This document shows, piece after piece, positions 15,963-59,399 of a DNA stretch of 64,000 nucleotides; the first letter of the stretch is position 1; every line of letters starts with the position of its first letter. Under the pieces are notes generated by a model. That model saw nothing but the letters and a program-made list of their open reading frames with translations. It did not search any database and had not been told where the DNA came from. This stretch comes from Actinomycetospora endophytica (lineage in GTDB: Bacteria > Actinomycetota > Actinomycetes > Mycobacteriales > Pseudonocardiaceae), in contig NZ_JAJNDB010000001.1 in the NCBI RefSeq assembly GCF_021026375.1, positions 744,001-808,000 of the forward strand, given 5' to 3'. The position numbers were made by a program, and so were the translations under genes.

Positions 15963-16118
15963 GTCACTCCTGTGACGTCGAGCGTGGGTGCGGGCCGGGT
16001 ACCGCGTCCCCGGTCGGCCCTTCCAGTCGGGCTTCCAGTCGACCGGCGGTGACCGGCGTGCTGCGCAGCGTCGGGGGCTCGGCGCTCGCGTCCCCCCTGC
16101 CCCTTTCCGTTGATCAAC
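15963..16118 (-). promoter_or_regulatory. Candidate operator/promoter region of the CYP102 operon
   Basis: The 260 bases between the LuxR regulator and the CYP102 operon (both minus strand) contain two short inverted repeats: GTCAC-TCCT-GTGAC at 15963-15976, 24 bases before the first start codon, and the perfect palindrome GTTGATCAAC at 16109-16118. Either could bind a dimeric regulator. No clear -35/-10 pair is visible. Confidence 0.3.
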
Positions 16119-16199
16119 AGCACACCAGGCAGCCGCGAGCGCTCCAGAACCTGCGCCCAGTGCCCCTCGTCGTCGGGACCGGCCGGGCCGCACCGGACG

Positions 16200-42738: not shown

Positions 42739-43614
42739 ATGGCCAGCGCGAAGCAGATCGTCTCCGAGCTCGGGCGCCCGGGGCCGTACCCGGTGCTGCG
42801 CGGTGAACTGGCGCTCGTCGGCCTGCCCGGCACGGTGTTCACCCCCACCTCCGGCGAGGGGCTGCCCGCGGTCGCGTTCGGGCACGACTGGCTGAACCCG
42901 GCGTCGCGCTACCTCGGCCTGCTCCGCCACCTGGCGTCGTGGGGGATCGTCGCCGCCGCCCCGGACACCGAGCGCGGCCCGTTCGCCTCGCACCGCCGGC
43001 TCGCCACCGATCTGCGGACCGCCCTCGACGTCTGCTCGTCGGTCCGCCTCGGCGGCACCGCGCGGGGCGCCGCCGTGAGCGTCGACCCCCGCCGGCTCGG
43101 ACTCGCCGGGCACGGCATGGGCGCCGGCGCGGCCGTGCTCGCGGCGAGCGTGACCGCCCACGACACCCGGGTGCAGGCCGTCGGCGACCCCTACTGGACC
43201 TCCGGCTCCGACCTCACCGTGGAGGCCGTCGCGACGATCGCGCTCTCCGAGTCGCGGCCGCCCGCCCAGGACGCCGCGCGGGCCGTGCACGTCCCCGGGA
43301 TGCACGTCGCGTTCGGCAAGGACCTCGTCGCGCCGCCGGCAGCGGGCGCGCAGCCCGTCGCCGCCGCGTGGGCGGGCCCGTCGGTGCTGCGGACGCTGAA
43401 GAAGGCGTCCCACCTGGGCATCGTCGAGGGGAAGCACTGGAGCGACCTCGTCCTCGACGGCAAGCCGGAGCCGGCGACCAACACGACGGTCCGCGCGCTG
43501 CTCACCGGCTTCCTGCTCCACCACCTGGCCGGCGAGAAGCGCTACGCCGACGTCGTCGACGGCTCGGTCAAGGGCACCGACGTCCGGGTCTACCGCGAGT
43601 CGTCCACGGTCTGA
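42739..43614 (+). CDS. Alpha/beta hydrolase-fold protein lacking the nucleophile serine
   Basis: A 291-aa protein of the dienelactone hydrolase/cutinase-like group (LPAVAFGHDWLNPASRYLG, then LASWGIVAAAPDTERGP). The nucleophile elbow, normally G-H-S-M-G, is LGLAGHGMGAGAA, with Gly126 in the serine position. A possible histidine region (KKASHLGIVEGKHW) remains. It may therefore be a binding or structural protein rather than an esterase. ATG 42739 gives the start MASAKQIVSELG. It diverges from glmS and overlaps the 3' end of the next, convergent gene by 25 bases. Related genes beside glmS occur in other actinobacteria. Confidence 0.8.
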   Translation: MASAKQIVSELGRPGPYPVLRGELALVGLPGTVFTPTSGEGLPAVAFGHDWLNPASRYLGLLRHLASWGIVAAAPDTERGPFASHRRLATDLRTALDVCSSVRLGGTARGAAVSVDPRRLGLAGHGMGAGAAVLAASVTAHDTRVQAVGDPYWTSGSDLTVEAVATIALSESRPPAQDAARAVHVPGMHVAFGKDLVAPPAAGAQPVAAAWAGPSVLRTLKKASHLGIVEGKHWSDLVLDGKPEPATNTTVRALLTGFLLHHLAGEKRYADVVDGSVKGTDVRVYRESSTV

Positions 43615-44483
43615 ACGATGCCGAGCCCGGGGCCGGGCGGGTCGTCGTCGGGATCGGGGTCGTCGTCCGGCACGTCCCCGGTCAGCGGGCCGAGCGCGGC
43701 GAGGATCTCCGGGAGCGCGAGCAGCTCCGGCGGCAGGGCGCCCGCGACGGGGTCGTCGACGGGCTCGTCGGCGCCGTCGTCCCCCGAGAGCCGGCGCAGT
43801 ACGCCGATCCGCTCGGCGAGATCCCGCCAGGTGGCGGCGATCGCCCGGTCGGTCCGGTCGGCGGCGCCGAGGTAGGTGTGCAGCCGGGCGTCGAGGTCGG
43901 CCGCCCAGGTGCGGGCGGCGGCCGTGTCGGTGCCCGCCGGCGGGACGGGGAGCTCAGCGGCGAGCTCCTCGGCCGCCTCGGCGCGGGCGGTGACGTCGTC
44001 CGCGACGGCGAGGCCCGCCCCCTCGACGGTCTCCGCGGTCTCCTCGAGCAGCGTCACGATCTCGTGGGCGGCGCGGCCGAGGGAGACCACGCGGTCGGCG
44101 ACCTCCTCGGCGGAGGGCCCCGACCAGCGCTCCCACAGCGTGCCCGCCTCCTCGGCCAGCGCGCGGTGGCGGGCGCGGACCCGCTCCGCCGCCGCGCGCA
44201 GGTCGTCGGCGCCCGCGGCGAGAGCCGCGAACCGCACCCCGGTCTGGGCGGTGTGACGGCGGCGCAGCCCCTCGGCGTCGACCGGCGGGGCCGGGAGGCC
44301 GGCCGGACCGGCGAGGGCGACGCGCGCGGGGAGCACCGCCACGACGGTCTCGACGGCGTCGTCCGCCGCCGCGAGCAGGGTGTCGGAGTCGGCGGCGCCG
44401 AGGTCGGCCAGTCGCCGGGCCGGGGGCACGGCGCGCAGCCCGGCCGCGCCGCCCCTCGAACGGTGCCCCGGACGCCGTGTCAC
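43590..44483 (-). CDS. Alanine-rich helical protein of unknown function (WSG motif)
   Basis: A protein of about 297 aa, mostly long amphipathic helices rich in Ala, Glu and Arg (for example ADDLRAAAERVRARHRALAE and AAARTWAADLDARLHTYLG). A turn LWERWSGPSAEEVADRV between two helices recalls the W-x-G turn of WXG100/ESX proteins, though it is much longer than those. The C-terminus is acidic and Pro-rich (DDDPDPDDDPPGPG). No membrane segment or catalytic motif is seen. GTG 44483 follows GGAGGGAGG by about a dozen bases; a GTG at 44522 is possible. It precedes nothing on its strand; glmM is 64 bases upstream. Confidence 0.6.
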   Translation of the reverse strand: MTRRPGHRSRGGAAGLRAVPPARRLADLGAADSDTLLAAADDAVETVVAVLPARVALAGPAGLPAPPVDAEGLRRRHTAQTGVRFAALAAGADDLRAAAERVRARHRALAEEAGTLWERWSGPSAEEVADRVVSLGRAAHEIVTLLEETAETVEGAGLAVADDVTARAEAAEELAAELPVPPAGTDTAAARTWAADLDARLHTYLGAADRTDRAIAATWRDLAERIGVLRRLSGDDGADEPVDDPVAGALPPELLALPEILAALGPLTGDVPDDDPDPDDDPPGPGLGIVQTVDDSR

Positions 44484-44547
44484 GCGGCTCAGCGTCCTCC
44501 CTCCGCACCCGCGGATCCACACCGGGCCACGAGCGGACCCGGCCCGG

Positions 44548-45899
44548 TCAGCGGATGGTCGCGACGAGCCCGGCGAGACGGTCGGCGACGTCGCGGGCGA
44601 CGTCCTCGGTCGGCGCCTCGACCATGACCCGCACCAACTGCTCGGTGCCCGAGGGGCGCAGCAGCACCCGTCCCCGGCCGGCCAGCGCCTCCTCCTCGGC
44701 CGCGACCGCCTCGGCCACCTCCGTGGAGGTACCGACCGCGGCCTTGTCGTGGACCGGCACGTTGACCAGGACCTGGGGCAGCCGCTGCACCACCCCGGCC
44801 AGCTCGGCCAGCGACCGTCCGTCGGCCGCCATCCGGGCCATGATCCGCAGGCCGGTGAGCAGGCCGTCGCCGGTGGTGGCGTGGGCGGGGAGGACGACGT
44901 GGCCGGACTGCTCGCCGCCGAGCGAGAACGCCCCGGCGCGCAGTTCCTCGAGCACGTAGCGGTCGCCGACGGCGGTGGTCCGGACGGTGATCCCGGCCTC
45001 CTGCATGGCGAGGTGCAGGCCGAGGTTGCTCATCACCGTGGTGACGAGGGTGTCCGCGGCGAGCTCGCCCGCCTCGCGCATCGCCGTCGCGAGGACGGCG
45101 AGGATCTGGTCGCCGTCGACGACGGTGCCGTCCGCGGCCACCGCGAGGCACCGGTCGGCGTCGCCGTCGTGGGCGATCCCGAGGTCCGCGCCGTGCGCGA
45201 CGACCGCCTTGCAGAGGCCGTCGAGGTGGGTGGAGCCGACACCCTCGTTGATGTTCCAGCCGTTCGGCTCGGCGGCCAGGGCGGTGACGCGGGCCCCGGC
45301 GCGCTCGTAGGCGCGGGGCGCGGCGAGCGACGCGGCGCCGTGCGCGCAGTCGACCACGACGTGCAGGCCGTCCAGCCGGTGCGGCGTGGCCTCGAGCAGG
45401 TGCTCGAGGTAGATCGCCAGCGCGTCCGGCACGTCGGTGACCCGGCCGATGTCGTGGCCGGTCGGTCGCTCGCCGGGCTGCGGGGGACGGGAGGCGTGCG
45501 CCTCGATCTCGTCCTCGACGGCGTCGGGGAGCTTGTGCCCACCGGCGGCGAACAGCTTGATGCCGTTGTCGGGCATCGCGTTGTGGGACGCCGAGATCAT
45601 GACGCCCAGGTCAGCCTCGAGAACCCCGGTGAGGAACGCGACGGCCGGGGTCGGCAGCACGCCGAGCCGCCGGACGTCCGCGCCCGCGGCCGACAGGCCG
45701 GCGCAGACGGCCGCCTCGAGCATCTCCCCGCTGGCGCGCGGGTCCCGCCCGACGAGGGCCAACGGCCGCGCCGACGCACCGCCGCCCGCGCGCTCGACGA
45801 GCACGCGGGCGGCGGCGGACGCGACCGTGAGCGCCAGCTCGGGCGACAGGTCGGCGTTCGCGAGGCCGCGGACGCCGTCGGTCCCGAACAGGCGCCCCA

Positions 45900-45900
<1 letters not shown>
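44548..45900 (-). CDS. glmM: Phosphoglucosamine mutase
   Basis: GlmM converts glucosamine 6-phosphate to the 1-phosphate. The 450-aa protein begins [15 protein letters not shown], has the phosphoserine loop [15 protein letters not shown], the metal loop [12 protein letters not shown], the sugar-binding GGEQSGHVV and the phosphate loop [12 protein letters not shown]. All catalytic elements are intact. Its ATG overlaps the rpsI stop by one base, so it is the last gene of the rplM-rpsI-glmM transcript, the same order as in M. tuberculosis. Confidence 0.97.
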
Positions 45901-46477
<577 letters not shown>

Positions 46478-46481
<4 letters not shown>

Positions 46482-46921
46482 TGGCTCACCTGTCGAATCT
46501 CGTACGGCACGGGCTTCTGGGCGGCGTGCGGGTGCTCGGGGCCGGCGTAGACCTTGAGCTTCGACGCCATGGCCCGTCCCAGCCGGTTGTGCGGGAGCAT
46601 GCCCTTCACGGCCTTCTCGACGAGACGGCTCGGGAAGCGGTCCAGCTCCTCACCCACCGAGCGGGCACGCAGGCCGCCCGGGAAACCGCTGTGGTGGTAG
46701 ACGAACCGGTCGTCACGCTTGTTGCCGGACAGGGCGACCTTCTCGGCGTTCACGATCACCACGAAGTCACCGCTGTCCATGTGCGGCGCGTACGAGGGCT
46801 TGTGCTTGCCCCGCAGCAGCTGCGCCGTCTGGCTCGCGAGTCGACCGAGGACGACGTCGGAGGCGTCGATGACGTGCCAGGCGCGGTCGATGTCGCCGGG
46901 CTTCGGACTGAACGTGCGCAC
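46478..46921 (-). CDS. rplM: 50S ribosomal protein L13
   Basis: A 147-aa uL13: [20 protein letters not shown] at the start, [20 protein letters not shown], then [21 protein letters not shown] and [17 protein letters not shown] near the end, all typical. Start is GTG with GAGG about seven bases before it. It is the first gene of the rplM-rpsI-glmM unit; the 180-base gap to esxT should hold its promoter, although no clear -35/-10 could be picked. Confidence 0.97.
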
Positions 46922-47101
46922 GGAGCTACCTCGTCACGGTCATACTGGTCTGCGGTACGTCACGGGGACACGGGCGCGGTGGACTGTCCCCAACGGTCGA
47001 GTTCCGCGCTGCATCTCCGTCGCGGCGTGCATTCACCGCGCAACGACTCTCCAGGTTACGCGGTGACCCGGGAGCACCCGGCACCCACCCCCGAGGCGTG
47101 C

Positions 47102-47389
47102 TCAGGCGTAGCGCATCGCATTCTGCGCCTCGGTGGCGCGGTAGAGCTGCTCGGCCTGCCCTAGCCGTCCGCCGATCTGGCTCAGTACCTGCGTCAGGTC
47201 GGCCATCGCGGTGTCGATCTCGTGCTGGCGGGCCTGGTACTGCTCCGCGGCCGCGCCGGTCCAGTCGGCCACGAGCGGTGCCAGCTGACGTTTCAGGTCG
47301 TCCAGCCGGCCCTGGATCTGGGTGGCGGTGGTGGTCACGCTCTGCTGGGCGGCGGTCAGCTCGCCGAAGGTCACGCGGATCTCGTCCAC
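47102..47389 (-). CDS. esxT: WXG100-family protein EsxT-like (ESX-4 substrate)
   Basis: A 95-aa ESAT-6-like protein: two helices joined by the turn VADWTGAAAEQY (the W-x-G motif), and a C-terminal secretion signal of the Y-x-x-x-D/E type, YRATE. Such proteins are secreted as heterodimers through type VII systems. It lies 40 bases after a second WXG100 gene and upstream of rplM, which is the esxU-esxT-rplM order of mycobacteria (Rv3445c-Rv3443c). GTG 47389 begins VDEIRVTFGEL. Confidence 0.9.
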   Translation of the reverse strand: MDEIRVTFGELTAAQQSVTTTATQIQGRLDDLKRQLAPLVADWTGAAAEQYQARQHEIDTAMADLTQVLSQIGGRLGQAEQLYRATEAQNAMRYA

Positions 47390-47429
47390 GGTGCGGGTCC
47401 TCTCGTGGGATGGGTGGCCAGGTCTCAGG

Positions 47430-47741
47430 TCAGGTCAGGGCCTGGCTGATCTGCGAGGTGGACGAGGCGATCTCGTCCTCGGCGGCGCGGTAGGTCACGC
47501 CCGAGGCCTGGACGGACTCGCCGATCGACTGCAGCGCGGCGTTGATGCGCCGGGCGTCGTCGTTCCACCGCGCCATCAGCTGGTGGAACGCGACCGAGGC
47601 GTCGCCGCGCCAGGTGCCCTCCAGCGGCGCCAGCTGGGCCCGCAGCTGCCCGAGCTGCGCCGTGATCTGGTCGCGGACCTCGAACACGTGCTGGCCCGCG
47701 GACTGCATGACCTGGGTCTGGGTCCCGAACTGTCCGGCCAC
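47430..47741 (-). CDS. esxU: WXG100-family protein EsxU-like (ESX-4 substrate)
   Basis: A 103-aa partner of the downstream WXG100 protein. It has the helix QITAQLGQLRAQLAP, the turn LEGTWRGDASVAFHQL (W-x-G) and the signal YRAAE. GTG 47741 is preferred because GAGGGGAG lies about eight bases upstream and it gives the family length; the frame stays open further upstream, but that part runs through the tandem repeats. It is expected to form the secreted dimer with EsxT and to be exported by the EccC/EccD/EccE machine encoded 3-10 kb away. Confidence 0.9.
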   Translation of the reverse strand: MAGQFGTQTQVMQSAGQHVFEVRDQITAQLGQLRAQLAPLEGTWRGDASVAFHQLMARWNDDARRINAALQSIGESVQASGVTYRAAEDEIASSTSQISQALT

Positions 47742-47866
47742 CGGCCGCTCCCCTCTTCGAACGCCGCGCCCGTCCGTCGCGGTTCGGTCGAACAGTGACA
47801 CCCGATCCGCGCGCGTGGTGGTCGTTTCGGTGAAGTCGCGCGGAGATCCCGCGGGTCGGTTTCGCC

Positions 47867-48124
47867 AGGGGCACATCACGCCGCGCCCGGTGCCGCCGAG
47901 CCTGCCCCAGGTGCTCCTGATCATGGAGCAGGCCGCCGCGGGCGCCACCCCCTGACGCCTCCTCGTCGAGGGGCACATCACGCAGCGCTGGGTGTCGGCG
48001 CGCCTGCCCCAGGTGCTCCTGATCATGGAGCCGGCCTCGCGACGACCCGGCCCCCGCGCCGAGGGGCACATCGCGCAGCGCGCCGTGCCGCCGAGCCTGC
48101 CCCAGGTGCTCCTGATCATGGAGC
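47867..48124. repeat. Three direct 63-bp repeats (T) between the ESX-4 genes and esxU
   Basis: Units at 47867-47929, 47969-48031 and 48062-48124 are each exactly 63 bp, separated by 39 and 30 unrelated bases. Conserved parts are AGGGGCACATC at the left and CCTGCCCCAGGTGCTCC, then TGATCATGGAGC at the right; the middle 25 bases vary. GGGGCA pairs with TGCCCC (outer stem), and GCTCC-TGATCAT-GGAGC forms a second stem-loop. They fill most of the 406-base gene-free gap 47742-48147. Confidence 0.92.
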
Positions 48125-48147
48125 AGGCCGCCCCGAGCCCGGCGAGC

Positions 48148-50304
48148 TCAGGGCGGGCTGCGCAGCGTCGACACCACGCGCGCACAGGCCGCGATCACCG
48201 TGTCGCGCCCGGGGTCGTCGTGCCGGCACCCGACCGAGAGCTGGGTCGCCCCGGCGAAGACGACGACCCACTCGACGGTCGTGCCCGGCGCGGCGACCTG
48301 GCGGTAGGTCGCCACCTGGCGCCCGCCGAAGGTGGTGTCCGGCTGCAGGTCGGACACCCCGCCACCGGCTGTGCGGGCGGCCTCGAACCCGGCGAGCAGC
48401 TGGGCCCGCGCACCGGCCGGGTCCGGGGAGGCGAGCGCGCTCTCCTGGACGGCGATCAGGTTGGGGCCCCGCGGCTGGTCGACCGGCCGGATGCGGCTGC
48501 GACGGGAGGCGGCGTCGGTGCCGTCGGGGACCCAGCCGGCCGGCAGTTCGTAGGCGTGCGAGAAGGCGGAGACCACCGTCGGCGGCGCCGCGGTCGCCGC
48601 CCCACCGCCCCCGCCACGCAGCCCGGCGACGACGAGCACCAGCACCACGACGGCCGCCGTCGCCGCGGCGACCACGGCGGCCCGGCGCCGCGGCGACCAG
48701 CGCGCGGCCCCACCGGGCGTCTCGGTCCGGACCAGCGCCCGCGAGGCCGGCACCAGCGGATGGGCGATGCGCCGGGTCGGCCCGTCGGGGTCCGAGGCCA
48801 CCGCGACCGGATGGACCCCGGGGCCCGGCGACCGGAGTGGAGGCACGGGGGCGGTCGGTCCGGTGGTGAGGGCGGGCGGGGTCGACGACGGTGGGCGCGG
48901 CACGGTCGACTCGGTGTCCCGGGTCGGGAAGGACCGCGCCTGCTCCGTGGACGGCGGCCGCGCACCCCGGAATGTCGTGGCGGGACCCGGCCGGGCGGGC
49001 GGCACGGGCCGCGGCCAGTCGGGCAGCAGCGGCAGTCCCCCGGTCCGCGGACCACCCGGTCCGGCAGCCGCGGCCCCGGCGGATGCCGGTCCGGCGATGC
49101 CCGGCCCCGGCGTCCCCGTCCCGAAGGCTCCCGCGCCGGACACGCCCGCCCCCACCACCCCCGTCGACGACACACCAGCCCCGGGCCACGCCGATCCCCC
49201 ACGTGCCGCCACGGCCGTGGACGGCCCCGCAACGCCGTTCGCACCCGCCCCGCCCGACCTCGACGCGACGGCCAGCAGCGCCCCGCGGGCGACCACCGTC
49301 CGCGGCTCCGGCGGCACCACCGGCGGGACCCCGAGCTCGCGGTGCACCAGCGTCCCCAGCAGCGGCGTGCGCGCGAGGCCGCCGACCAGCCGCAGCCCGG
49401 CGAGCGAGACCGCATCGACCCCGGCGTCGTCGAGGGTCGCGGCGAGCAGCGCGACGAGCGCCTCGCACGGCCCGCGCAGCAGGTCCTCGAGCTCGCCGCG
49501 CGAGCACCAGGCCGACGTCGCGCCGCCGGGCAGCGGGATCTCGGCCTGCTCGGCGTCGGAGAGCCGTTCGCGCGCGGCCCGCACGTCCTCGACGAGGACC
49601 TGCCGGTGGCGCCGGTCGGGCAGCGTCGCGCCGGCGACGACCTCGCGGACCCGGTCCGCGCCGGGCGCTCCCGCGGGCAGCGTCGCGAGGACCTCGCTGA
49701 GCAGCTGCTCGTCCGCGTCGTCCCCGCCGAAGTCGCCGGAATCCCGTGCCGCGAGCACCACCGATCCGGAGACCACCGCCGCCCGCGCGGTCCGGGTCCC
49801 GACGTCGAGCACCGCGACCGGACCGTCCGCCGCGCCGCCGGGGCGCATCCATGCAGCGTGGGCGGCGACCGCGAGCGGCTCGGGCAGCAGCACCAGCTCG
49901 GCCCCGAGCCCCGCGCCGGCCCGGCGCAGCACCTCGCGCCGGGACGTGCCCCACGACGCCGGGTGGGTCAGCACCAGCCGCGCGGGGCGAGCACCGCGCA
50001 GGGCGGGCGCCGCGCGGTCCACGGTGGCCGCGAGCACGGCGCCGAGCGCCTCCCCGACCCCGACGACGCGCGTGCCCAGCAGCAGCGAGCCCTCGGCGAC
50101 GTGCCGGCGCGGGGCGGGCTCGAGCCGGGACGGATCCGCGGCGGCCCGACGGCGGGCCTCCCGCCCAGTCAGCAGCGCCTCGCCGTCGTCGGGCGCGAGC
50201 ACCGCGGCGGACTCGAGCGCGAGCTCGGTGACCTCGCCGCCGTCGTCGACCGCGGCCGCGACGCCGTACTCACCGAGGTCGACCGCGACGGTCGGGCCGG
50301 TCAC
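48148..50304 (-). CDS. Type VII secretion-associated protein, Rv3446c family (Hsp70/actin-like fold)
   Basis: A 718-aa protein. Residues 1-330 resemble an actin/Hsp70 ATPase: TVAVDLGEYGVAAAV (phosphate 1), VAVLDVGTRTARAAVVSG (phosphate 2) and RLVGGLARTPLLGTLVHR (adenosine motif). A long Pro/Gly-rich stretch (about 330-540) leads to one transmembrane helix (541-561; VVVLVLVVAGL) and an outer domain of 155 residues (FSHAYELPAGWVP; VEWVVVFAGATQLSVGCRHD) characteristic of the Rv3446c family. It lies between esxU and eccC as in M. tuberculosis ESX-4. It overlaps eccC by four bases. It may act as an assembly or chaperone factor for secretion; not proven. Confidence 0.85.
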   Translation of the reverse strand: MTGPTVAVDLGEYGVAAAVDDGGEVTELALESAAVLAPDDGEALLTGREARRRAAADPSRLEPAPRRHVAEGSLLLGTRVVGVGEALGAVLAATVDRAAPALRGARPARLVLTHPASWGTSRREVLRRAGAGLGAELVLLPEPLAVAAHAAWMRPGGAADGPVAVLDVGTRTARAAVVSGSVVLAARDSGDFGGDDADEQLLSEVLATLPAGAPGADRVREVVAGATLPDRRHRQVLVEDVRAARERLSDAEQAEIPLPGGATSAWCSRGELEDLLRGPCEALVALLAATLDDAGVDAVSLAGLRLVGGLARTPLLGTLVHRELGVPPVVPPEPRTVVARGALLAVASRSGGAGANGVAGPSTAVAARGGSAWPGAGVSSTGVVGAGVSGAGAFGTGTPGPGIAGPASAGAAAAGPGGPRTGGLPLLPDWPRPVPPARPGPATTFRGARPPSTEQARSFPTRDTESTVPRPPSSTPPALTTGPTAPVPPLRSPGPGVHPVAVASDPDGPTRRIAHPLVPASRALVRTETPGGAARWSPRRRAAVVAAATAAVVVLVLVVAGLRGGGGGAATAAPPTVVSAFSHAYELPAGWVPDGTDAASRRSRIRPVDQPRGPNLIAVQESALASPDPAGARAQLLAGFEAARTAGGGVSDLQPDTTFGGRQVATYRQVAAPGTTVEWVVVFAGATQLSVGCRHDDPGRDTVIAACARVVSTLRSPP

Positions 50305-53300
50305 GAGGCACCGTCCGAGGGCTCACGAGCCCGGATCGGCGTCTCCGGATCCCGCCACGCCAGCTGCACGAGGGTCTCGCCGTGGCGGCGGGTGACCAGC
50401 ACCGCCCGGCCCGGCGGACGGGGGCCCGGGCGGGCCGTCCCGACCAGCGGCCCCTCCTCGCGACTGCCGTGGCCGACCAGGCCCGGCGTCGCGAGCTCCC
50501 GCAGCCGGGTGAGCAGCGGCTCGAACATCGCCCGCGCGGAGCCGCCCGCCCGGCGCGCGACCACGAGGTGCAGCCCGACGTCCTTGGCCTGGGCCAGCAG
50601 GTCGACCAGCGGGGCGAGCGGGTTGCCCGAGGGCGCGGCGACGAGGTCGTAGTCGTCGACGAGCAGGAACACCTCCGGCCCGGTCCACCACGAGCGGGCG
50701 CGCAGCTGCTCCGGGGTGACGTCGGGCCCGGGCAGGCGCCGCCGCAGCGAGGCCACCAGGTCGGTGACCGCCGCGGTCAGCGCCTCGGCGGAGGAGGTGT
50801 AGCTGATGAGGTGCTCGGAGTCGACGGCGCCGAGCAGCCCGCGCCGGTAGTCGACGATCATCAGCCGCGCCTGTTCCGGGGTGTGGCGCGTCACGATCTG
50901 GTGGGCGAGCAGGCGCAGCAGCGCGGTCTTGCCGGACTCGCCGTCGGCGTAGACGACGAGGTGCGGGTCGGCGGAGGTGTCGAGCAGGACCGGCGCGAGC
51001 CGGTCCTCGTCGACCCCGATCGGCAGGAGGTGACGCTCGCCGTCGTCGGGCCCGGGCAGCGTCCCCACCTCGACCCGCTCCGGCAGCAGCCGCACCGGCG
51101 GCACGGCCGCCCCGTCCCACGCTGCCGCCACCGCCGGAACGAGATCCGCCCCCGGCACCGCGACCAGCACGTGATGGCGGTCGGGGGACAGCCCGCGCCC
51201 CGGGTGGCCCGCCGGGACCGTGGCCGCCACCCGCCGGTCGACCTCGGACTCGCCCGGGTCGCCGAGGCGCAGCTCCACGCGGGTGCCGAGGAGGTCCTTG
51301 AGCGCCGGGCGCAGCTCGGCCCAGCGGCTCACCGCGATGGCGACGTGCACGCCGTAGGACAGGCCCGCCGTCGCGAGCGTGATGATCGTCGACTCCAGCG
51401 CCTCGTGGTCGGCGCGGAACGCGTGCCAGCCGTCGATGACGAGCACGACGTCGCCGAGGTGGTCGGACCCCGCGGGCAGCTCCCCCCGACGACGCCGCGC
51501 CCGCAGGTCGGCCGCGGAGGTGATGCCGTGCTCGCGGAACCAGCGCTCCCGCCCGGCCAGCAGCGCCGCGACCTCGGCGACCACCCGGCGCACCAGGTCG
51601 GTGTCGCCCCGCCCGGCGACGGTGCCCACGTGCGGCAGGGCCGCGAGCCCGCCGAGTGTCCCGCCGCCGAGGTCGACGACATGGAACGCGAGCTCGGCCG
51701 GGGTGTGGGTGAGCGCGGCCGCGGTGACGAGCGCCCGCAGCGTCGTCGACTTCCCCGACTGCGGGCCGCCGGCGACGACGACGTGCCCGGCCGCCCCGGA
51801 GAGGTCGGCCCAGAGCAGGTCCCGGCGCTGCTCGTAGGGCCGGTCGACGAGGCCGAGGGGCAGGTGCAGCGTGCCGTTGGTGGGGAAGCCGGGCGCGCTC
51901 CGACCGCGGTCGGGGGTCTCGATCAGCGGCGGGAGCAGCGCCTCGAGCGCGATCGGGCCCTCGAGCGGCGGCAGCCAGACCTCGTGGGCGGGCGGGCCGG
52001 CCTCGCGCAGCCGCTCGACGACCGCGTCGAGCACGCTCGGGACCCGGGGCTCGTCGTCGGGATCCACGACGACGTCCGCCCCGTCACCGGCCGCGGGCAG
52101 CGCGGGCGGCAGGTCGACCCAGCCGCCGTGGAACGGGCGCGGCGGACGGGTGGGACGGCGCGCGTCGAGCCCGGTCAGCGGCGGCGGGCGCAACGGCTCG
52201 CGGCGCCGGTGCGGGCCGGAGACGTAGCCCGCGGTGAACCGCACCATCGTCGAGGTGTCCGAGCGCAGGTAGCCGACGCCGGGCACCGACGGCAGCGACG
52301 CCGCGTCCGGCACCCCGAGCACCGCGCGGGAGTCCGCGGCGGAGAACGTCCGCAGCCCGATGCGGTACGACAGGTGCGAGTCCAGCCCGCGCAGCCGCCC
52401 CTCGTCGAGACGCTGCGAGGCGAGCAGCAGGTGGATCTGCAGCGAGCGTCCGAGCCGGCCGATCGCGGTGAACAGGTCGGCGAGGTCCGGCTTCTGGTGC
52501 AGCAGCTCGGAGAACTCGTCGACGACGACGAACAGCGCCGGCAGCGGCTCGAGGTCGGCCCCGCGCTCCCGGGCGCGCTCGTAGTCGGCGACGGATCCGA
52601 GGTTCCCGGCCGAGCGCAGCAGCTCCTGGCGACGGTTCATCTCGCCGGCGAGGGCGTCCTGCATGCGGTCGACGAGCCCGAGGTCGTCGGCGAGGTTGGT
52701 GATCACCGCGGCCACGTGCGGCGCCTCGGACAGCCCGGCGAAGGTGGCGCCGCCCTTGAAGTCGACCAGCACCAGGTTCAGCGCCGCCGACGAGTGCGTG
52801 GTGACGAGCCCGAGGACCAGTGTGCGCAGCAGCTCCGACTTGCCGGACCCGGTCGCGCCGACGCAGAGCCCGTGCGGGCCCATCCCCTCCTGCGCGGCCT
52901 CCTTGAGGTCGAGCTCGACCGGCTCGCCGTCCTCGCCGATCCCGAACGGCACCCGCAGCCGCTCGCGGGCCGCACGGGGCCGCCAGGCGGCGGCGACGTC
53001 GAAGGTGTCGGGGTCGCCGGGCACGCCGAGCAGCTCGAGCAGGCCCGGCGTCGACGGTCCGGCCTCGTCGCGCGCGGCGCCCGGCGTGCGACAGGGCGCG
53101 AGCCGGCGGGCCAGCGCCTCGGCCTCGGCCCCGGAGAGCCCGTCCGGCCGGCCGAACCACTCGACGCCGGCGGCGCCCGCGGCCCCGACCCGCACCTCCG
53201 GGTCGTCCTCCACGACGAGGCGCAGCCCGCGCCGTCCCACGAGGCTCTCCAGCGCCCCGTCGAGATCGATCAGCGTGACTCCGGCCAGCCCGTCCTCGAC

Positions 53301-54308
53301 GAGCGCGCGGTCGCCGTCGTCGCCTGCCGTCCCCTCGACGACCGCCTCGTCGAGCACGACGACGACGTGGGCCGCACCGGCGGGGACGCCGGCGCCGCGG
53401 GTGAACCGGGGGCGGTCGGCGAGCTCGGGAGCCAGCCAGGCCTGCACCGTCGCCAGCGAGGCGGCGATCATCCGCATCGGCCCGGCGCCGTCGGCGATGC
53501 GCGGGTGCGCGACGTGCGGCAGCCACTTGCACCACTCCCACGCCGAGCGCCCCTCACCGCTCGCCGCGACCGCGAGCAGCAGGTCGTCCGGGCCGTGGAA
53601 GGTGACCAGCTGGCCGACCAGCGCCCGGACCAGCGCGCGGCGGCGCTCCCGGTCCGCGCCGGTCACGCCGACGGCCGCGAAGGCCCGCAGCGACACCGCC
53701 GTCGGGAGGGCCTCGACGACGGAGTGGGTGCGGACGAAGCGGCGCAGCGCCACCGTCGTCACCGGCTCCAGGTCCTCGACCGGGCCGGTCTGCGGCGGGA
53801 CCAGCGCGGTCGCGAGCCGCTGCGCGCCACGGCCTACCCGCACGTGCGCGAAGTCCGGGTCGCCGGGGCGCCGCTCCCAGGTGCGCGCGCCGCGGGCCAG
53901 GGTCACCAGCGCGTCCGGGTCCGGGTGGGTCCACTCCAGGCTGGCCCGCTGCTCGCCGGCGACATCGCGGGCGCGGCGGCGGATCTGGGCGAGGTAGCGC
54001 AGGTAGTCGGCGCGCTCGGCGTCGGACTCGGCGCGCCGCTGCGCACCGCCGCGGGAGAAGCCCCCGGCGACCATGCCCAGCGTCGACAGCGCGATCATGC
54101 CCCCGAACAGCCACGACGTCGGGTTGTCGATCCCGATGACGACGACGAACCCGACGGACGCCAGCAGCATGACCAGCGGCAGCAGACGCTGCAGCACACC
54201 CGCCGGCGCGATGCGTGGCTCGGCGGGCGGGGCCTCGAGCGGGATCTCGCCCGCCGGCATCACCGGGGCGGGCGTGCGCGGCCCGCGGCGGACGACCTGC
54301 GTGCCCAC
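50301..54308 (-). CDS. eccC: Type VII secretion ATPase EccC (ESX-4)
   Basis: The 1,335-aa motor of the type VII system. Two N-terminal transmembrane helices (about 45-85) precede a degenerate DUF region and three FtsK/SpoIIIE ATPase domains whose Walker A loops are GATGSGKSELLR (about 480), GGPQSGKSTTLR (about 850) and ADGESGKTALLR (about 1120). The first Walker B is FVVVDEFSELL. EccC recognises WXG100 signals and drives export. GTG 54308 follows GGGAGGAGGGG, a strong ribosome site. All three ATPases are in one chain, as in ESX-2, -3 and -4. It diverges from eccD across 205 bases. Confidence 0.95.
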   Translation of the reverse strand: MGTQVVRRGPRTPAPVMPAGEIPLEAPPAEPRIAPAGVLQRLLPLVMLLASVGFVVVIGIDNPTSWLFGGMIALSTLGMVAGGFSRGGAQRRAESDAERADYLRYLAQIRRRARDVAGEQRASLEWTHPDPDALVTLARGARTWERRPGDPDFAHVRVGRGAQRLATALVPPQTGPVEDLEPVTTVALRRFVRTHSVVEALPTAVSLRAFAAVGVTGADRERRRALVRALVGQLVTFHGPDDLLLAVAASGEGRSAWEWCKWLPHVAHPRIADGAGPMRMIAASLATVQAWLAPELADRPRFTRGAGVPAGAAHVVVVLDEAVVEGTAGDDGDRALVEDGLAGVTLIDLDGALESLVGRRGLRLVVEDDPEVRVGAAGAAGVEWFGRPDGLSGAEAEALARRLAPCRTPGAARDEAGPSTPGLLELLGVPGDPDTFDVAAAWRPRAARERLRVPFGIGEDGEPVELDLKEAAQEGMGPHGLCVGATGSGKSELLRTLVLGLVTTHSSAALNLVLVDFKGGATFAGLSEAPHVAAVITNLADDLGLVDRMQDALAGEMNRRQELLRSAGNLGSVADYERARERGADLEPLPALFVVVDEFSELLHQKPDLADLFTAIGRLGRSLQIHLLLASQRLDEGRLRGLDSHLSYRIGLRTFSAADSRAVLGVPDAASLPSVPGVGYLRSDTSTMVRFTAGYVSGPHRRREPLRPPPLTGLDARRPTRPPRPFHGGWVDLPPALPAAGDGADVVVDPDDEPRVPSVLDAVVERLREAGPPAHEVWLPPLEGPIALEALLPPLIETPDRGRSAPGFPTNGTLHLPLGLVDRPYEQRRDLLWADLSGAAGHVVVAGGPQSGKSTTLRALVTAAALTHTPAELAFHVVDLGGGTLGGLAALPHVGTVAGRGDTDLVRRVVAEVAALLAGRERWFREHGITSAADLRARRRRGELPAGSDHLGDVVLVIDGWHAFRADHEALESTIITLATAGLSYGVHVAIAVSRWAELRPALKDLLGTRVELRLGDPGESEVDRRVAATVPAGHPGRGLSPDRHHVLVAVPGADLVPAVAAAWDGAAVPPVRLLPERVEVGTLPGPDDGERHLLPIGVDEDRLAPVLLDTSADPHLVVYADGESGKTALLRLLAHQIVTRHTPEQARLMIVDYRRGLLGAVDSEHLISYTSSAEALTAAVTDLVASLRRRLPGPDVTPEQLRARSWWTGPEVFLLVDDYDLVAAPSGNPLAPLVDLLAQAKDVGLHLVVARRAGGSARAMFEPLLTRLRELATPGLVGHGSREEGPLVGTARPGPRPPGRAVLVTRRHGETLVQLAWRDPETPIRAREPSDGAS

Positions 54309-54513
54309 GCCCCTCCTCCCGGCCGCTCGGGGGACCAGCCCATCATGCCCGGCGGGGCAGCGCACCGGATCTTCCTCGTTCGCCCTCTGCGTGGCGCCTC
54401 CGGAGGTCATACTAGGGAGCCGATCAGCCGATGGGGCACGATCGGCGCAGGTCGTCCGCGTTCCCGCCGGGCGGTCGGGGGCGAGGGAACGGATCTCCGG
54501 GGAGGGGGAGTCG

Positions 54514-56127
54514 ATGAGCACCGGCACCGGCCGGGGGCCTGCCCCGGTCGCGCTCGGGCGCCCGTCGGAGAGGCCGGGCCCGCCCGCCGGGCCCGCGCTC
54601 GTGCCCACCCCGGCCGCGCCCGACGACGCCGCCCCGGTCACCCGGATCTCGGTGCTGGCCCCCACCACGCGCGTCGACGTGGCGCTACCGGGGGACGTCC
54701 CGGTGGCCGACCTGCTCGGCGTCCTCGTCGAGATGACCGAGCGGGCCGCTCCGCCCGAGGGCCCGCCGCCGTGGCGCGGGGAGGCGGTCCGCAGCGCCGA
54801 CCGTCCTGCCGCCACCGGGTGGACGCTGGCCCCGCTCGGCGGAGCCCCGGTGGACCCGCGCCACACCCTCGACGGGCTCGGTGTCCTCGACGGCGACCAG
54901 CTCGTGCTCCGCCGTCGCGGCGAGGCGGCGCCCGCTCCGCTCTACGACGACGTCGTGGACGCGGTCGCCGAGTCCACCCCCGCGAGCTACCGGCCGTGGG
55001 ACGCGGGCTGGGCGCACGCGCTCGGCCTCGTCGGCGCGGCGACCGCGGGCACGCTCGCCCTCGGGGCGCTCCTCGCCGCCGGCCGGGGGCCCGGTACGGC
55101 GGGCGGCCTCGTCACCGCGGGTGCGGCCGCCGCGGTGGCGGTCCTCGCCGCGCTGCTCGGGGCCTCCTCGACGCGACTGTTCTCCCGTGCGGGGGCCGGG
55201 GCGGTGCTCGGGCTGCTCGCCACCGCCGCGGGCGCGGTGTGCGGTCTCGCGGCGGTGCCCGTCGAGGACGCGACCGCCGGGGCCCTGCTGGACGGCGCCG
55301 GCACCCCGCACCTGCTGCTCGCGTCGGCGCTCGCGCTGGTCACCGCGGGCGCGTCACTCCTGGGCACCGCGCGCACCGACCGGGTCGCGCTCGCCGTCCT
55401 CGTCGGGCTCACCACCGCCGCGGGGATCGCGACGGCCGTCGGGGCGGTCGCGACCGTCGTCGGCGCCCTGGCCGCGGCCCGCGGCACGGACGTCAGCGCG
55501 CCCGCGGTGGCGGCCGGCGCGGGCGCCGTCGCGCTGGTGGTGCTCTCCGCACTGCCCCGGCTCGGGATCGCGCTCGCCCGCCTGCCGCTGCCCCAGGTCC
55601 CCGCGTCCGCCGCGGAGCTCGCCCAGGACGCCGGCCCCGGGGATCCGGCGGCGCTGGACCGCCGCGCCGACCGCGCCCACGCCGTGCTCGCGGGGCTGGC
55701 GGGCGGCACCGTCGCCGCGCTCGCCGCGTCCGCCGCCGTCCTCGCCGCGGCGCCGGGCGAGGGCTGGCAGGGCACCGCGGGCTGGGTGCTGGCGGTGCTG
55801 CTCGTCGTCCTGCCCGCCCTGCGCTCGCGCAGCTACGCGAACGCGGTCCCCGCGGCGATCCTGCTGCTCGGGGCCGTCGTCGGCGGCGCGGCCGTCGGGG
55901 CCGGCGCGGTCGCCGCGGCGCCGCCCGGCATCGCCCGGGTCGGGCTCGCGCTGGCCGCGGTCGTCGCTGGCGGGCTCTGCGTGCTGCTCGGCTCCGCGCT
56001 CCCGGGGCGGCGGTCCTCCCCCGCGATGCGCCGGGCGGTGGACCTGCTCGAGGGCCTGGGGATCACCGCCGTCATCCCGCTCGCGCTCGCGGTGTGCGAC
56101 CTCTACACGGCGGTCCGGCTGCTGTGA
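54514..56127 (+). CDS. eccD: Type VII secretion membrane channel protein EccD (ESX-4)
   Basis: A 537-aa protein with a cytoplasmic ubiquitin-like domain (about 40-130; VTRISVLAPTTRVDVALPGD, then TLDGLGVLDGDQLVLRRRG) and about eleven transmembrane helices from residue 165 to the end (the last is GITAVIPLALAVCDLYTAV). EccD dimers line the secretion pore. ATG 54514 has GGAGGGGGAG upstream. It overlaps mycP by four bases. The Ala/Gly content of the helices is high even for this genome. Confidence 0.93.
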   Translation: MSTGTGRGPAPVALGRPSERPGPPAGPALVPTPAAPDDAAPVTRISVLAPTTRVDVALPGDVPVADLLGVLVEMTERAAPPEGPPPWRGEAVRSADRPAATGWTLAPLGGAPVDPRHTLDGLGVLDGDQLVLRRRGEAAPAPLYDDVVDAVAESTPASYRPWDAGWAHALGLVGAATAGTLALGALLAAGRGPGTAGGLVTAGAAAAVAVLAALLGASSTRLFSRAGAGAVLGLLATAAGAVCGLAAVPVEDATAGALLDGAGTPHLLLASALALVTAGASLLGTARTDRVALAVLVGLTTAAGIATAVGAVATVVGALAAARGTDVSAPAVAAGAGAVALVVLSALPRLGIALARLPLPQVPASAAELAQDAGPGDPAALDRRADRAHAVLAGLAGGTVAALAASAAVLAAAPGEGWQGTAGWVLAVLLVVLPALRSRSYANAVPAAILLLGAVVGGAAVGAGAVAAAPPGIARVGLALAAVVAGGLCVLLGSALPGRRSSPAMRRAVDLLEGLGITAVIPLALAVCDLYTAVRLL

Positions 56128-57413: not shown

Positions 57414-58624
57414 GTGCGCCGGAGCGGGCGGTCGTGCGCGCCTCGCCGGGAGACGGGGACGGCCGGCTCCCCGCCGCCGGGCCGGTCCGGATCGGCGGGC
57501 TCCTGGTGGTCGAGGTGGGGCTCGCGGTCGCGCTGGGTCTCCTGGCCCTCGGCGCGGGGCTCCCGGTGGCCGGGATCGTCCTGTCGGTCGCGCTGGTCGC
57601 GGGTCTGGTGCGGGTGCGCGGCGAGCTCGTCGGGGCCTGGGCGGTGCTGGCGCTGCGCCACCGGCTGCGGACCCGGGAGACATCGACCGACCCCGCCGCG
57701 GCGGACGCGGACGGCCTCGACCTCGGTCCGCTCGATCCGGCCGTCGGCGAGGTCACCGTGGTCGACGACCGCGACCACGACGGCCGGCCGGTGGCCGTCG
57801 CGGGTGCCGACGACGGCACGTGGTCGGCCGTCCTCGTCGTCGACCCCGATGAGCAGCCGCTCCTGATCGACGCGCCGTGGTCGGGCGGGTTCCCGCTGGC
57901 CGCGCTCGCGGGCACCCTGACCGACCGCGGGGTGGTCCTCGACGCTCTCACCGTCGTCCGCCACGTCCGTCCGGGCGGCGCCGACTCGCCCGCTCGGCAG
58001 GCCCACCGCCAGGTGCTCGGGCCGCTGGCCGACGCCGCGCACCGCAGTGCGTGGCTCGTCGTGCGGCTCGATCCCGACCGCTGCCCGGGCGCGGTCGCCG
58101 AGCGCGGCGGCGGGGTGCTGGGAGCCCGACGCGCGCTCGTCGGGGCCCTCGCCCGGATCGGTCGCGTCCTCGCCGAGGCCGACCTCCCGGTACGGCCGCT
58201 GGACCGCGACGGGCTGCGCGACGCCGTGGCGACCGCCGCGGCCGCGGACCTCGACCGCGCCCCGGGCGGAGTGACCGAGCGGTGGGACGCGGTCGTCGTC
58301 GGGGAGGTCGGGCACGCCACGTGGGCCGCGACCGACCTCGCCGTCGCCCCCGGCGCGCGCCTCGACCTCGACGACCTCGTCGCCCCCGACGCCGTCACGA
58401 CCCTCGCGCTGGCGCTGCTGCCCGACCAGGCGCTGCCCGACGGCGACGCGGCCGTGGGTGTGGCCGCGCGGGTGCGGGTCAGCGCCCGGACCCCCGAGGC
58501 GCTGATCGACGCGGGTGCCGCCGTCGTCGGGGCGGCCCGGGCGCGCGGGATGGTCCTCGAACCGCTGCACGGACGACAGGTGGCGGGCCTGCGCAGCACG
58601 CTGCCGCTCGGGGGCCTGACGTGA
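57410..58624 (+). CDS. eccE: Type VII secretion protein EccE
   Basis: A 404-aa protein with two N-terminal transmembrane helices (about 30-70; LLVVEVGLAVALGLLALGAG and VAGIVLSVALVAGLV) and a long outer/cytoplasmic domain with the EccE-type text TWSAVLVVDPDEQP and GRQVAGLRSTLPLGG. EccE sits at the edge of the type VII membrane complex. M. tuberculosis ESX-4 lacks eccE, so this locus is of the fuller ESX-4 type seen in other actinobacteria. GTG 57410 overlaps mycP. Confidence 0.85.
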   Translation: MSAPERAVVRASPGDGDGRLPAAGPVRIGGLLVVEVGLAVALGLLALGAGLPVAGIVLSVALVAGLVRVRGELVGAWAVLALRHRLRTRETSTDPAAADADGLDLGPLDPAVGEVTVVDDRDHDGRPVAVAGADDGTWSAVLVVDPDEQPLLIDAPWSGGFPLAALAGTLTDRGVVLDALTVVRHVRPGGADSPARQAHRQVLGPLADAAHRSAWLVVRLDPDRCPGAVAERGGGVLGARRALVGALARIGRVLAEADLPVRPLDRDGLRDAVATAAAADLDRAPGGVTERWDAVVVGEVGHATWAATDLAVAPGARLDLDDLVAPDAVTTLALALLPDQALPDGDAAVGVAARVRVSARTPEALIDAGAAVVGAARARGMVLEPLHGRQVAGLRSTLPLGGLT

Positions 58625-58655
58625 GCCGGGGCGCTGACGTGAATCGGGACCTGAC

Positions 58656-59399
58656 GTGACCGGGCGCCGCACGGCTCCCGGACCCGCCGGCACCGTCCGC
58701 CTCCGCGCGGGCGCTCTCGACGCGCTGTCCGCCCCGGTCGCGCCCGCCGGCATCGTGCTGGGCGCCGACGAGGACGGGGCGCCGGTGACGCTCGCGCTGC
58801 TGCGCCCGGTGCCCACGCGCGTCGTCGTGCTCGGGGCGTTGCACTTGGCGCGGCAGGTCGCGCTGCGCACCGTCGCCCAGGGCGCCCGCCTCTCGGTCAC
58901 GACGGGCCGGCGCGCCGCGTGGGAGCCGGTCGCGCGGGCCGCGGCCGACCCGGACCGGGTACGGATCGGGACCGACGAGGCACCACCCGAGGAGGCCCCA
59001 CCCGCTCGAACAACACCCGCCGAAGCCGCGCCCCGCGGCGCGGCACCCCGGCCCGGCGACACCGACGCCCTCCTCACCGTCCACGACCGCGGCGCCACGG
59101 CCGCGAGCCCCGCACCGCCCGCCGGGCCGTGGCGGGCGACGATGCTCGTGCTGCCCGCGCTGTCCCCGGCGGTCGCGGACGCCGCGGACGACGCCGACGT
59201 CGTGCTCCTCGGGCGCATGCCACCCCAGGAGGCCGACCTGGCTGCCCGGCTGTGGCGGCTCACCGAGCCGATGGCCGAGTCGCTCCGGACGCTGCCCGAC
59301 CACGGCGTCGTCGTGCTCGGGCGCAATCTCTGGCGGCGCCTCGACCTGGTCACCGCCGAGCGGGAAACGGCGCTGATCGGCCCCGTTCGGCGCAGCTGA
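58656..59399 (+). CDS. Uncharacterised protein of the ESX-4 locus
   Basis: A 247-aa soluble protein following eccE by 31 bases. It starts VTGRRTAPGPAGTVRLRAGA and has alternating beta/alpha text (TRVVVLGALHLARQVALRTV, later TMLVLPALSPAVADAADDAD and DHGVVVLGRNLWRRLDLV). The middle (about 110-145) is Pro/Ala-rich and probably flexible. It resembles a nucleotide-independent Rossmann-like or FHA-less EccE-neighbour protein seen in some actinobacterial ESX-4 loci, but I know no function. The upstream gap carries a three-fold repeat of CTGACGTGA with earlier GTG starts that stop at once, so GTG 58656 is the first usable start. Confidence 0.7.
   Translation: MTGRRTAPGPAGTVRLRAGALDALSAPVAPAGIVLGADEDGAPVTLALLRPVPTRVVVLGALHLARQVALRTVAQGARLSVTTGRRAAWEPVARAAADPDRVRIGTDEAPPEEAPPARTTPAEAAPRGAAPRPGDTDALLTVHDRGATAASPAPPAGPWRATMLVLPALSPAVADAADDADVVLLGRMPPQEADLAARLWRLTEPMAESLRTLPDHGVVVLGRNLWRRLDLVTAERETALIGPVRRS

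Follow-up and report, generated by a model that had tools for sequence, protein, structure and literature searches.

REP-type repeats have been familiar for decades. Many are regarded as products of transposases, and why bacteria keep them is unsettled. The REP/BIME elements of E. coli bind gyrase and IHF, and Pol I has also been named among the proteins that bind them. REPINs carry two inverted conserved ends around a variable centre, and attC sites are built from outer inverted arms, unpaired 5-nt spacers, inner arms, and a variable end of varying length. REP units are palindromes of 20–40 bp (PMC3733652) that alternate in orientation within BIMEs, and protein binding has been reported for both REPs and BIMEs (PMC2817692). 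The GTAG and CGTC superfamilies of REPs are extragenic palindromes that follow coding regions and occupy codirectional and convergent gaps; CGTC REPs have stems of 8–9 bp, loops of 4–5 nt, and a CCA-like tail, with no dedicated transposase known, and heterodimers are preferred in most families of these superfamilies (PMC3733652). The five phyla given for CGTC repeats do not include Actinobacteria, a word absent from the main text of that paper (PMC3733652). REPINs have been treated as sequence populations within a genome (PMC3116915, PMC8049555).

The repeat family analyzed here is apparently undescribed: the accessible part of the open-licence literature yielded no report of repeats in Actinomycetospora, Pseudonocardia, or Pseudonocardiaceae, or of helically phased intergenic repeats, and an earlier report is possible. 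Its first members lie in the window, by which we mean the whole 64,000-nt stretch of DNA analyzed, taken from an Actinomycetospora genome designated G000. An earlier note on this DNA had described three 63-bp units (47867–47929, 47969–48031, and 48062–48124), separated by 39 and 30 bases, in the gap between an Rv3446c-like gene and esxU (a WXG100 gene), and these observations stand: the copies starting at 47867, 47969, and 48062 are real and in register, with start-to-start distances of 102 and 93 bp, and the two flanking genes are both on the minus strand. The repeat is genuine, but the 63-mer is not its unit, as elsewhere the likeness stops at GATCA. The unit of the family is instead a 52-bp interrupted palindrome, AGGRGCAC-N5-GCA-N20-TGC-N5-GTGCYCCT, or about 62 bp with its conserved flanks, which are often TGATC on one side and CGACG or CGTCG on the other. 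Similarly, the proposed GCTCC/GGAGC stem with a TGATCAT loop can form in this array, but it is a local feature, because the GGAGC following TGATCAT is common to the three neighbours and not to the family, the inverted ends of which are AGGRGCAC and GTGCYCCT. Among the 80 copies listed from G000, GCTCC-TGATCAT-GGAGC is complete in this array alone, the others continuing with GATCAACGG, GATCACC, and the like; one 51-bp copy outside that list, in locus L012, carries GCTCATGATCATGGAGC.

Beyond the WXG100 gene downstream of the array, which by its position we take to be EsxU/EsxT-like (hereafter esxU), the array has a second WXG100 gene, rplM, and rpsI as neighbours. Positions 43590–56127 hold an ordinary cluster of two WXG100 genes, the Rv3446c-like gene, and EccC, adjoining rplM and rpsI; we presume that it is of the ESX-4 type and that the adjacent reading frame is phosphoglucosamine mutase-like. 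The repeat is not tied to ESX-4, and its family is genome-wide. Within the window, the core pattern (up to three mismatches) has four matches versus none in 100 shuffles, so chance is excluded. The fourth copy, which the earlier note overlooked, lies 31 kb from the array between two minus-strand genes (Table 1).

Table 1. Repeat elements, example half-sites, and genes flanking the array, in window coordinates. The strand of element 4 comes from its GATC end alone, as the combined direction score gave no call.
Feature	Coordinates	Strand	Remarks
Element 1 with flanks	47862..47923 (core 47867–47918)	-	right end of GATC type; interior GCGCCCGGTGCCGCCGAGCC; paired half-site score 49.2 bits
Element 2 with flanks	47964..48025 (core 47969–48020)	-	0 mismatches to core pattern; 55.5 bits
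Element 3 with flanks	48057..48118 (core 48062–48113)	-	0 mismatches to core pattern; 50.2 bits
Element 4 with flanks	16111..16172 (core 16116–16167)	+	TGATC flank left, CGTCG flank right; 51.6 bits
Half-site example (half without GATC)	47867..47882	+	AGGGGCAC-ATCAC-GCC
Opposite half-site example (GATC half)	47903..47918	-	AGGAGCAC-CTGGG-GCA read inward, flank TGATC
WXG100 gene, downstream of array	47430..47741	-	TIGR03930
Type VII secretion-associated Rv3446c-like gene	48148..50304	-	TIGR03931; stop codon about 30 bp from array

The genome-wide count that the earlier note had proposed gave 127 places in G000 that match the core pattern with up to three mismatches (each counted on both strands, the pattern being palindromic), versus 3 for a reversed control. 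A DNA search of the same genome returned at least 25 matches at E 0.001 or better among the 40 of 336 candidates that were scored, and scoring of paired half-sites identified 14 copies in 464 kb (10 in a contiguous 400 kb and 4 in the window), which extrapolates to ~175 copies on the basis of the 400 kb or ~210 on that of the full 464 kb. Across 18 Actinomycetospora genomes, the matches at the same threshold numbered, besides the 127 of G000, 162 in G009, 139 in G010 (59% complete), 95 in G013, 75 in G005, 32 each in G008 and G017, 30 in G012, and 2–9 in the remaining ten; controls gave 1–7 per genome, and 7 of the 18 genomes were not above their own control. Two further patterns gave a like picture, though with just 0–6 matches in G012 and G017. 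Outside the genus, a permissive pattern matched in 13 Pseudonocardiaceae genomes out of 279, never more than once in any of them, and among 397 genomes of the order, two of them Actinomycetospora, exact matches were confined to G000 (25), G005 (44), and one outside-genus genome (1). Among named genomes, at least 98 stretches matched; of the 80 matches listed, 73 were in Actinomycetospora and the other 7, each single, were taken as chance.

The consensus itself differs between species. In G005 and in NBRC 106378 it is shifted, with G or T at positions 4 and 5 and a flank that is mostly CG before A, and the geometry is kept, a shift that a co-evolving binding protein would produce, as would species-specific spread. 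Because the consensus differs and seven genomes do not exceed their controls, a general essential function cannot be claimed. G006, G015, G003, and G011, which have few standard copies, contain a few longer, near-perfect palindromes that keep the frame, for example GAGCACGTGGTGCACC together with its complement (loci L088, L097, L085, and L093); these are perhaps a sister family with another consensus. In the window, three direct repeats of 17–18 bp around CTGACGTGA (58611–58664) resemble the inner half-site of G005-type elements without the paired geometry.

The anatomy of the elements is rigid in one respect and free in another. In four genomes, the centre separating the half-sites measures exactly 20 bp in 169 of 176 strong pairs lying within 60 bp (64/66 in G000, 36/40 in NBRC 106378, 37/37 in the MAG GZL_HY_2_bin.147, and 32/33 in TBRC 11914, where the three named genomes are represented by 67 of 80 listed loci). 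In 464 kb, 19 half-sites score 14–15 of 15 versus 2 in the reversed control; 14 of these are paired at the threshold used for pairing, 3 belong to elements with a lower-scoring partner half, and 2 are isolated, whereas at 13 of 15 the count (58) is no higher than in the control (63).

Neighbouring copies are spaced with similar regularity. All 91 start-to-start distances below 120 bp, from five species, fall at 81–84, 91–95, 102–106, or 113–115 bp, and none at 85–90, 96–101, or 107–112 bp, these bins having been set after inspection of the data. The 66 cases from four genomes occupy 82–84, 91–95, 102–106, and 113–115 bp, and the 25 from G005 occupy 81–84 or 93 bp, so that peaks about one helical turn apart recur in species with differing consensus. 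For the 66 spacings, the vector strength is 0.91 at 10.3–10.4 bp, with a phase near zero, and 0.90 at 10.0, 0.87 at 11.0, and 0.71 at 9.0 bp; the helical period is only loosely fixed because spacings of 83 and 93 bp dominate, and the spacings are not independent because tandem copies often descend from each other. Longer gaps between copies measure 133–354 bp in G005 and 248–312 bp in three other genomes.

The elements are also polar. A GATC end is present on one side only in 43 of 58 copies from G000 (expected 28.7; none of 3000 shuffles as high), in 21 of 27 from the MAG (expected 13.1; 1 of 3000), and in 16 of 26 from TBRC 11914 (expected 11.3; 105 of 3000), and NBRC 106378 elements have no GATC ends. 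Among the 80 elements of these three species that have one GATC end, position 11 is G in the half with GATC and C in its partner in 37, the reverse in 9, and some other combination in 34. The two halves thus usually differ in type, and the site therefore has a direction. Adjacent copies (n = 91) mostly share it, with 62 in the same direction, 6 in opposite directions, and 23 not orientable.

The fixed centre length, the phasing, the polarity, and the half-sites that stay intact beside a freely varying centre together favour a site read by protein on double-stranded DNA. We put at roughly 0.6 the probability that the elements are recognition sites for one putative oligomeric DNA-binding protein, a likely architectural role included; what is computed is anatomy, copy number, spacing, polarity, location, and the intactness of the half-sites, and from these the protein binding, its oligomeric state, and its role are putative readings. 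Of the possibilities raised by the earlier note, a protein-binding array gains indirect support from the fixed 20-bp centre, the phased spacing, the intact half-sites beside a free centre, and the small number of decayed copies.

A structured RNA, acting as a bidirectional terminator, an mRNA stabiliser, or a leader of esxU, would also place inverted ends beside genes. The ends can form an 8-bp stem, and for elements 1 and 2 the best plus-strand fold includes it; moreover, copies cluster near gene 3′ ends as well as in convergent gaps. However, when halves were thinned for relatedness (58 of 71, 22 of 38, 27 of 43, and 26 of 36 kept in four species) and re-dealt 3000 times, fully paired 8-bp arms occurred no more often than expected (16 vs. 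16.0, 2 vs. 2.7, 14 vs. 13.3, and 13 vs. 15.1), and pairs within the N5 spacers fell below expectation in all four species (98 vs. 119.2, 43 vs. 60.2, 37 vs. 52.1, and 41 vs. 53.8, with 20, 1, 14, and 65 of 3000 shuffles as low). In favour of RNA, pairing in the 20-bp centre is slightly high in G000 (230 vs. 210, a value reached in 118 of 3000 shuffles), although the other species are near expectation or below it, and in a harder-thinned G000 set pairing exceeds that of shuffles at positions 9 and 26 (56 and 19 of 2000) but not at most others. The folding energy of eight strands is ordinary (z-scores of -1.17 to +1.02), no T-run terminator-like site was found in 47380–48400, and Rfam gave no match at gathering in the window and one sub-threshold match (E 0.81). 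Nor is orientation relative to transcription fixed: in codirectional gaps, 16 elements run with transcription and 10 against it in G000, and 12 and 18 do so in G005. As for replication, contig C9 of G000 carries elements in both directions. Helical phasing, finally, would be unexpected for an RNA.

The arms thus gave no compensatory pairing in the covariation check that the earlier note had called for, and because the halves lack it a stem-loop RNA is not supported; we regard this explanation as quite improbable. Its particular form as a structured esxU leader is not supported either, given the below-chance spacer pairing, the ordinary folding energy, and the lack of the array at 11 of 14 orthologous loci. 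The earlier note had reasoned that an absence of covariation, together with confinement of the unit to this one place, would make both a structural RNA and a mobile element unlikely. Covariation is indeed absent, and confinement proved wrong, since the family is genome-wide. The same re-dealt-halves test also led us to drop the notion of G-U pairs retained in the spacer on one of the strands.

The layout of 8-bp arms, a 5 × 5 non-pairing spacer, a GCA stem, and a variable centre, with spacers that pair less than chance, also recalls recombination sites used as folded single strands, as in integron attC sites. Here, however, the outer stem is not kept paired (in NBRC 106378, positions 4 and 5 both pair in just 3 of 22 copies), the length of the centre is fixed, and neighbours lie ~30–60 bp apart, too tight for a gene cassette. 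The attC reading was dropped after the pairing test, in which the arms were at expectation, and we give it hardly any credence.

The location of the copies relative to genes was determined with a home-made gene caller, the codon model of which was trained on 400 kb of G000, for the 71 G000 copies scoring 19–22 of 22 (9 weaker copies of the 80 were removed). Most copies are intergenic; they prefer the ends of genes and are rare in divergent gaps. Outside predicted genes lie 65 of the 71, distributed over convergent (25), codirectional (33), and divergent (7) gaps; the remaining 6 are inside genes. By comparison, of the 39728 intergenic bp in 400 kb, convergent gaps make up 4068 (10%), codirectional gaps 19976, and divergent gaps 15684 (39%). 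Counted by independent gap, the G000 copies fall in 19 convergent, 23 codirectional, and 5 divergent gaps, with 2 in genes, and among 81 copies of G005, at loci chosen from listed matches, 32 are convergent, 34 codirectional, 8 divergent, 4 in genes, and 3 unplaced. Two three-copy arrays of G000, at C11:2350-2587 (L041, L042) and C9:1285459-1285900 (L057), sit inside predicted reading frames, and the second has a counterpart in the same gap of the MAG locus L123. Unless these gene calls are mistaken, the repeats there are translated.

A conventional transcription regulator would likewise have palindromic, phased operators with intact half-sites. Against this explanation, only 7 of the 65 intergenic copies lie in divergent gaps, the 30 of 97 flanking proteins that were scanned are mixed and have no function in common, and relatives lacking the array still show, on inspection by eye, a recognisable block immediately upstream of esxU; we consider it very improbable. 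The persistence of that block without the array also means that the array is not needed at esxU. At L020:1541-1690, two elements are flanked by a MerR regulator and by a gene with a weak histone H1-like (HC2) match that falls short of the Pfam cut-off; these neighbours are a possible starting place for a hunt for the binding protein, a suggestion that rests on nothing else.

The main rival to a protein-binding site is a miniature mobile element of the MITE or REPIN type, the inverted ends of which would be the sites of a putative transposase that spread it. The family has inverted ends, about a hundred or more mostly intergenic copies in several species, a clade-restricted and patchy distribution (2–162 matches by species), and a species-specific consensus. 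Moreover, gaps filled in one species are empty in another (L122/L052, L155/L073, L173/L047, L181/L054, and others). At the esxU locus, G000 has three copies and G009 and G010 two each, so that the array is present in 3 of the 14 orthologous loci; the gaps of the other 11 are short and have none, as read by eye. The 14 do not include G006 and G015, where the locus gave no match, or G011 and G014, where it gave only short, doubtful ones.

Loci were compared between species after masking of the elements, each gap being anchored by alignment of its flanks (both of them wherever this could be done), and the picture is mixed. Between G000 and other species, 13 locus pairs share copies in the same gap, 6 do not, and 1 (L165/L082) is ambiguous, most of the compared G000 loci having been chosen because they carry copies. 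The 13 verified pairs represent 11 G000 loci, with 10 two-sided and 3 one-sided anchors; L160/L004 and L184/L027 involve wide gaps in G000, and L129/L071 was also compared. Of the 13 shared pairs, 12 are with the MAG or TBRC 11914 and 1 with NBRC 106378, which accounts for 5 of the 6 unshared. In L155/L073 and L181/L054 the copies are in different gaps, and L161/L030 was not recovered as adjacent. A less biased set, comprising the other-species loci that fall within the contiguous 400 kb or the window, has 4 of 9 loci shared (2 of 7 without the esxU-array locus), with 4 of 5 in the nearer species and 0 of 4 in NBRC 106378. Copies are thus often unshared with the more distant species checked, as a mobile origin would have it, and this limited sharing makes independent gain of copies a possibility. 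With a view to target-site duplications, two pairs of occupied and empty gaps were aligned (L122/L052 and L173/L047), and their flanks are too diverged to define element ends. Around a dCTP deaminase-like gene (L054:16773-17345), the element lies on opposite sides in G000 (L054, 16659) and NBRC 106378 (L181, 5552), a possible case of turnover or of a shift between neighbouring gaps.

Several observations nevertheless speak against a mobile element as the explanation. The RAYT transposase domain Y1_Tnp (PF01797) has matches in 0 of the 18 genus genomes, three of which are less than 90% complete, versus 5 of 14 named genomes serving as control. The centre varies between copies and the ends do not. 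In the best-matching copies of the 13 shared pairs, identity is 0.93 in the core, 0.54 in N5, and 0.48 in the centre, compared with 0.93, 0.44, and 0.45 at random loci treated alike, where the equality in the core arises by construction and 365 of 2000 draws reach 0.48 in the centre; compared all-by-all, centres are 0.39 identical at random loci and 0.42 identical at shared ones. The centre is therefore without detectable ortholog signal while the core is intact, which indicates either selection on the core at old sites or fast turnover of copies within gaps. Arrays also keep their phase, and hardly any decayed copies exist. The paired score, applied to 464 kb of G000, yields 14 copies at 41–60 bits and then nothing above 5.1 (reversed control maximum, 8.4). 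When half of the copies, drawn at random, served to train the score, 282 places in five species reach at least 30 bits and 4 lie between 10 and 30, with none above 10 in the reversed control; apart from the 464 kb, these loci were mostly picked for good copies. Neutral drift would leave a decayed tail, and the near-absence of decayed copies is set against it. The small mobile palindrome proposed in the earlier note is a possible origin of the family: no RAYT was found, but only 4 of 9 loci are shared between species in the less biased set; as an account of what the elements are, a mobile element seems to us unlikely, albeit a serious contender.

In the reading as recognition sites for a putative oligomeric protein, each element would consist of two inverted half-sites of about 20 bp, which in this species read inward as GAYS-AGGRGCAC-N5-GCA and would be held exactly 20 bp apart by a centre that the protein does not read. 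A GATC half with G at position 11 and another half with C would make the bound site directional, and copies would be strung mostly head-to-tail at about whole helical turns. Given such spacing, complexes bound at neighbouring copies would sit on one face of the helix, where they could touch each other. The architectural role is the weaker step of this reading: placement after genes and scarcity in divergent, promoter-containing gaps make an architectural job likely, and by analogy with REP/BIME elements, the complexes may serve as a boundary or roadblock between transcription units or as a nucleoid or supercoil anchor. More tentatively still, the elements may belong to a lineage-specific chromosome-organising system, in which a dedicated, putative oligomeric protein of Actinomycetospora would occupy ~130–210 polar, phased, post-gene composite sites, its stacked complexes would insulate transcription units or anchor the nucleoid, and site and protein would co-evolve between species.

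This family, with no RAYT found, few decayed copies, intact half-sites, and turn-spaced neighbours, makes binding to double-stranded DNA directly testable, and once the protein is identified, it should become clear whether a GC-rich actinobacterium can use repeats at gene ends as boundaries or anchors.

Among described systems, several resemble the family in part. In contrast to a CRISPR array, the 80 listed copies lie on 10 of the 17 contigs of G000, singly or in groups of two or three, and not in one array. Compensatory changes of the kind seen in riboswitches and other structured RNAs are absent, apart from the slight excess in the G000 centre, and the window has no Rfam match at gathering. 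Unlike MITEs, the copies are not alike over their full length (centre identity of 0.39 at random and 0.42 at shared loci). With attC sites the family has in common the layout of outer arms, 5-nt spacers, inner arms, and variable centre, but its arms do not covary, its length is fixed, and there is no room for a cassette between neighbours. Like REPINs, it has two inverted conserved ends and a variable centre; PF01797 is nevertheless found in 0 of the 18 genomes, the halves are not tagged hairpins, and decayed copies are almost absent.

The closest known kinds are the REP/BIME elements and the GTAG/CGTC superfamilies of REPs. The family and the CGTC REPs are both extragenic palindromes placed after genes, with a CGTC-like motif at one end and a preference for unlike ends, whereas the 8-bp arms here are 36 nt apart and no CCA tail is common to the listed copies. 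REP/BIME elements are likewise high-copy, extragenic, palindromic, and clustered with regular spacing (here 127 matches, control 3, with 65 of 71 outside genes). The unit here, however, is 52–62 bp, the half-site is itself non-palindromic, the centre is fixed at 20 bp but unconserved, and the arrays are mostly head-to-tail (62 same, 6 opposite, 23 not orientable, n = 91). Thus, the family works like REP/BIME elements in copy number, gene-end placement, and clustering, and it is structurally distinct from them in unit size, hairpin form, orientation, and RAYT.
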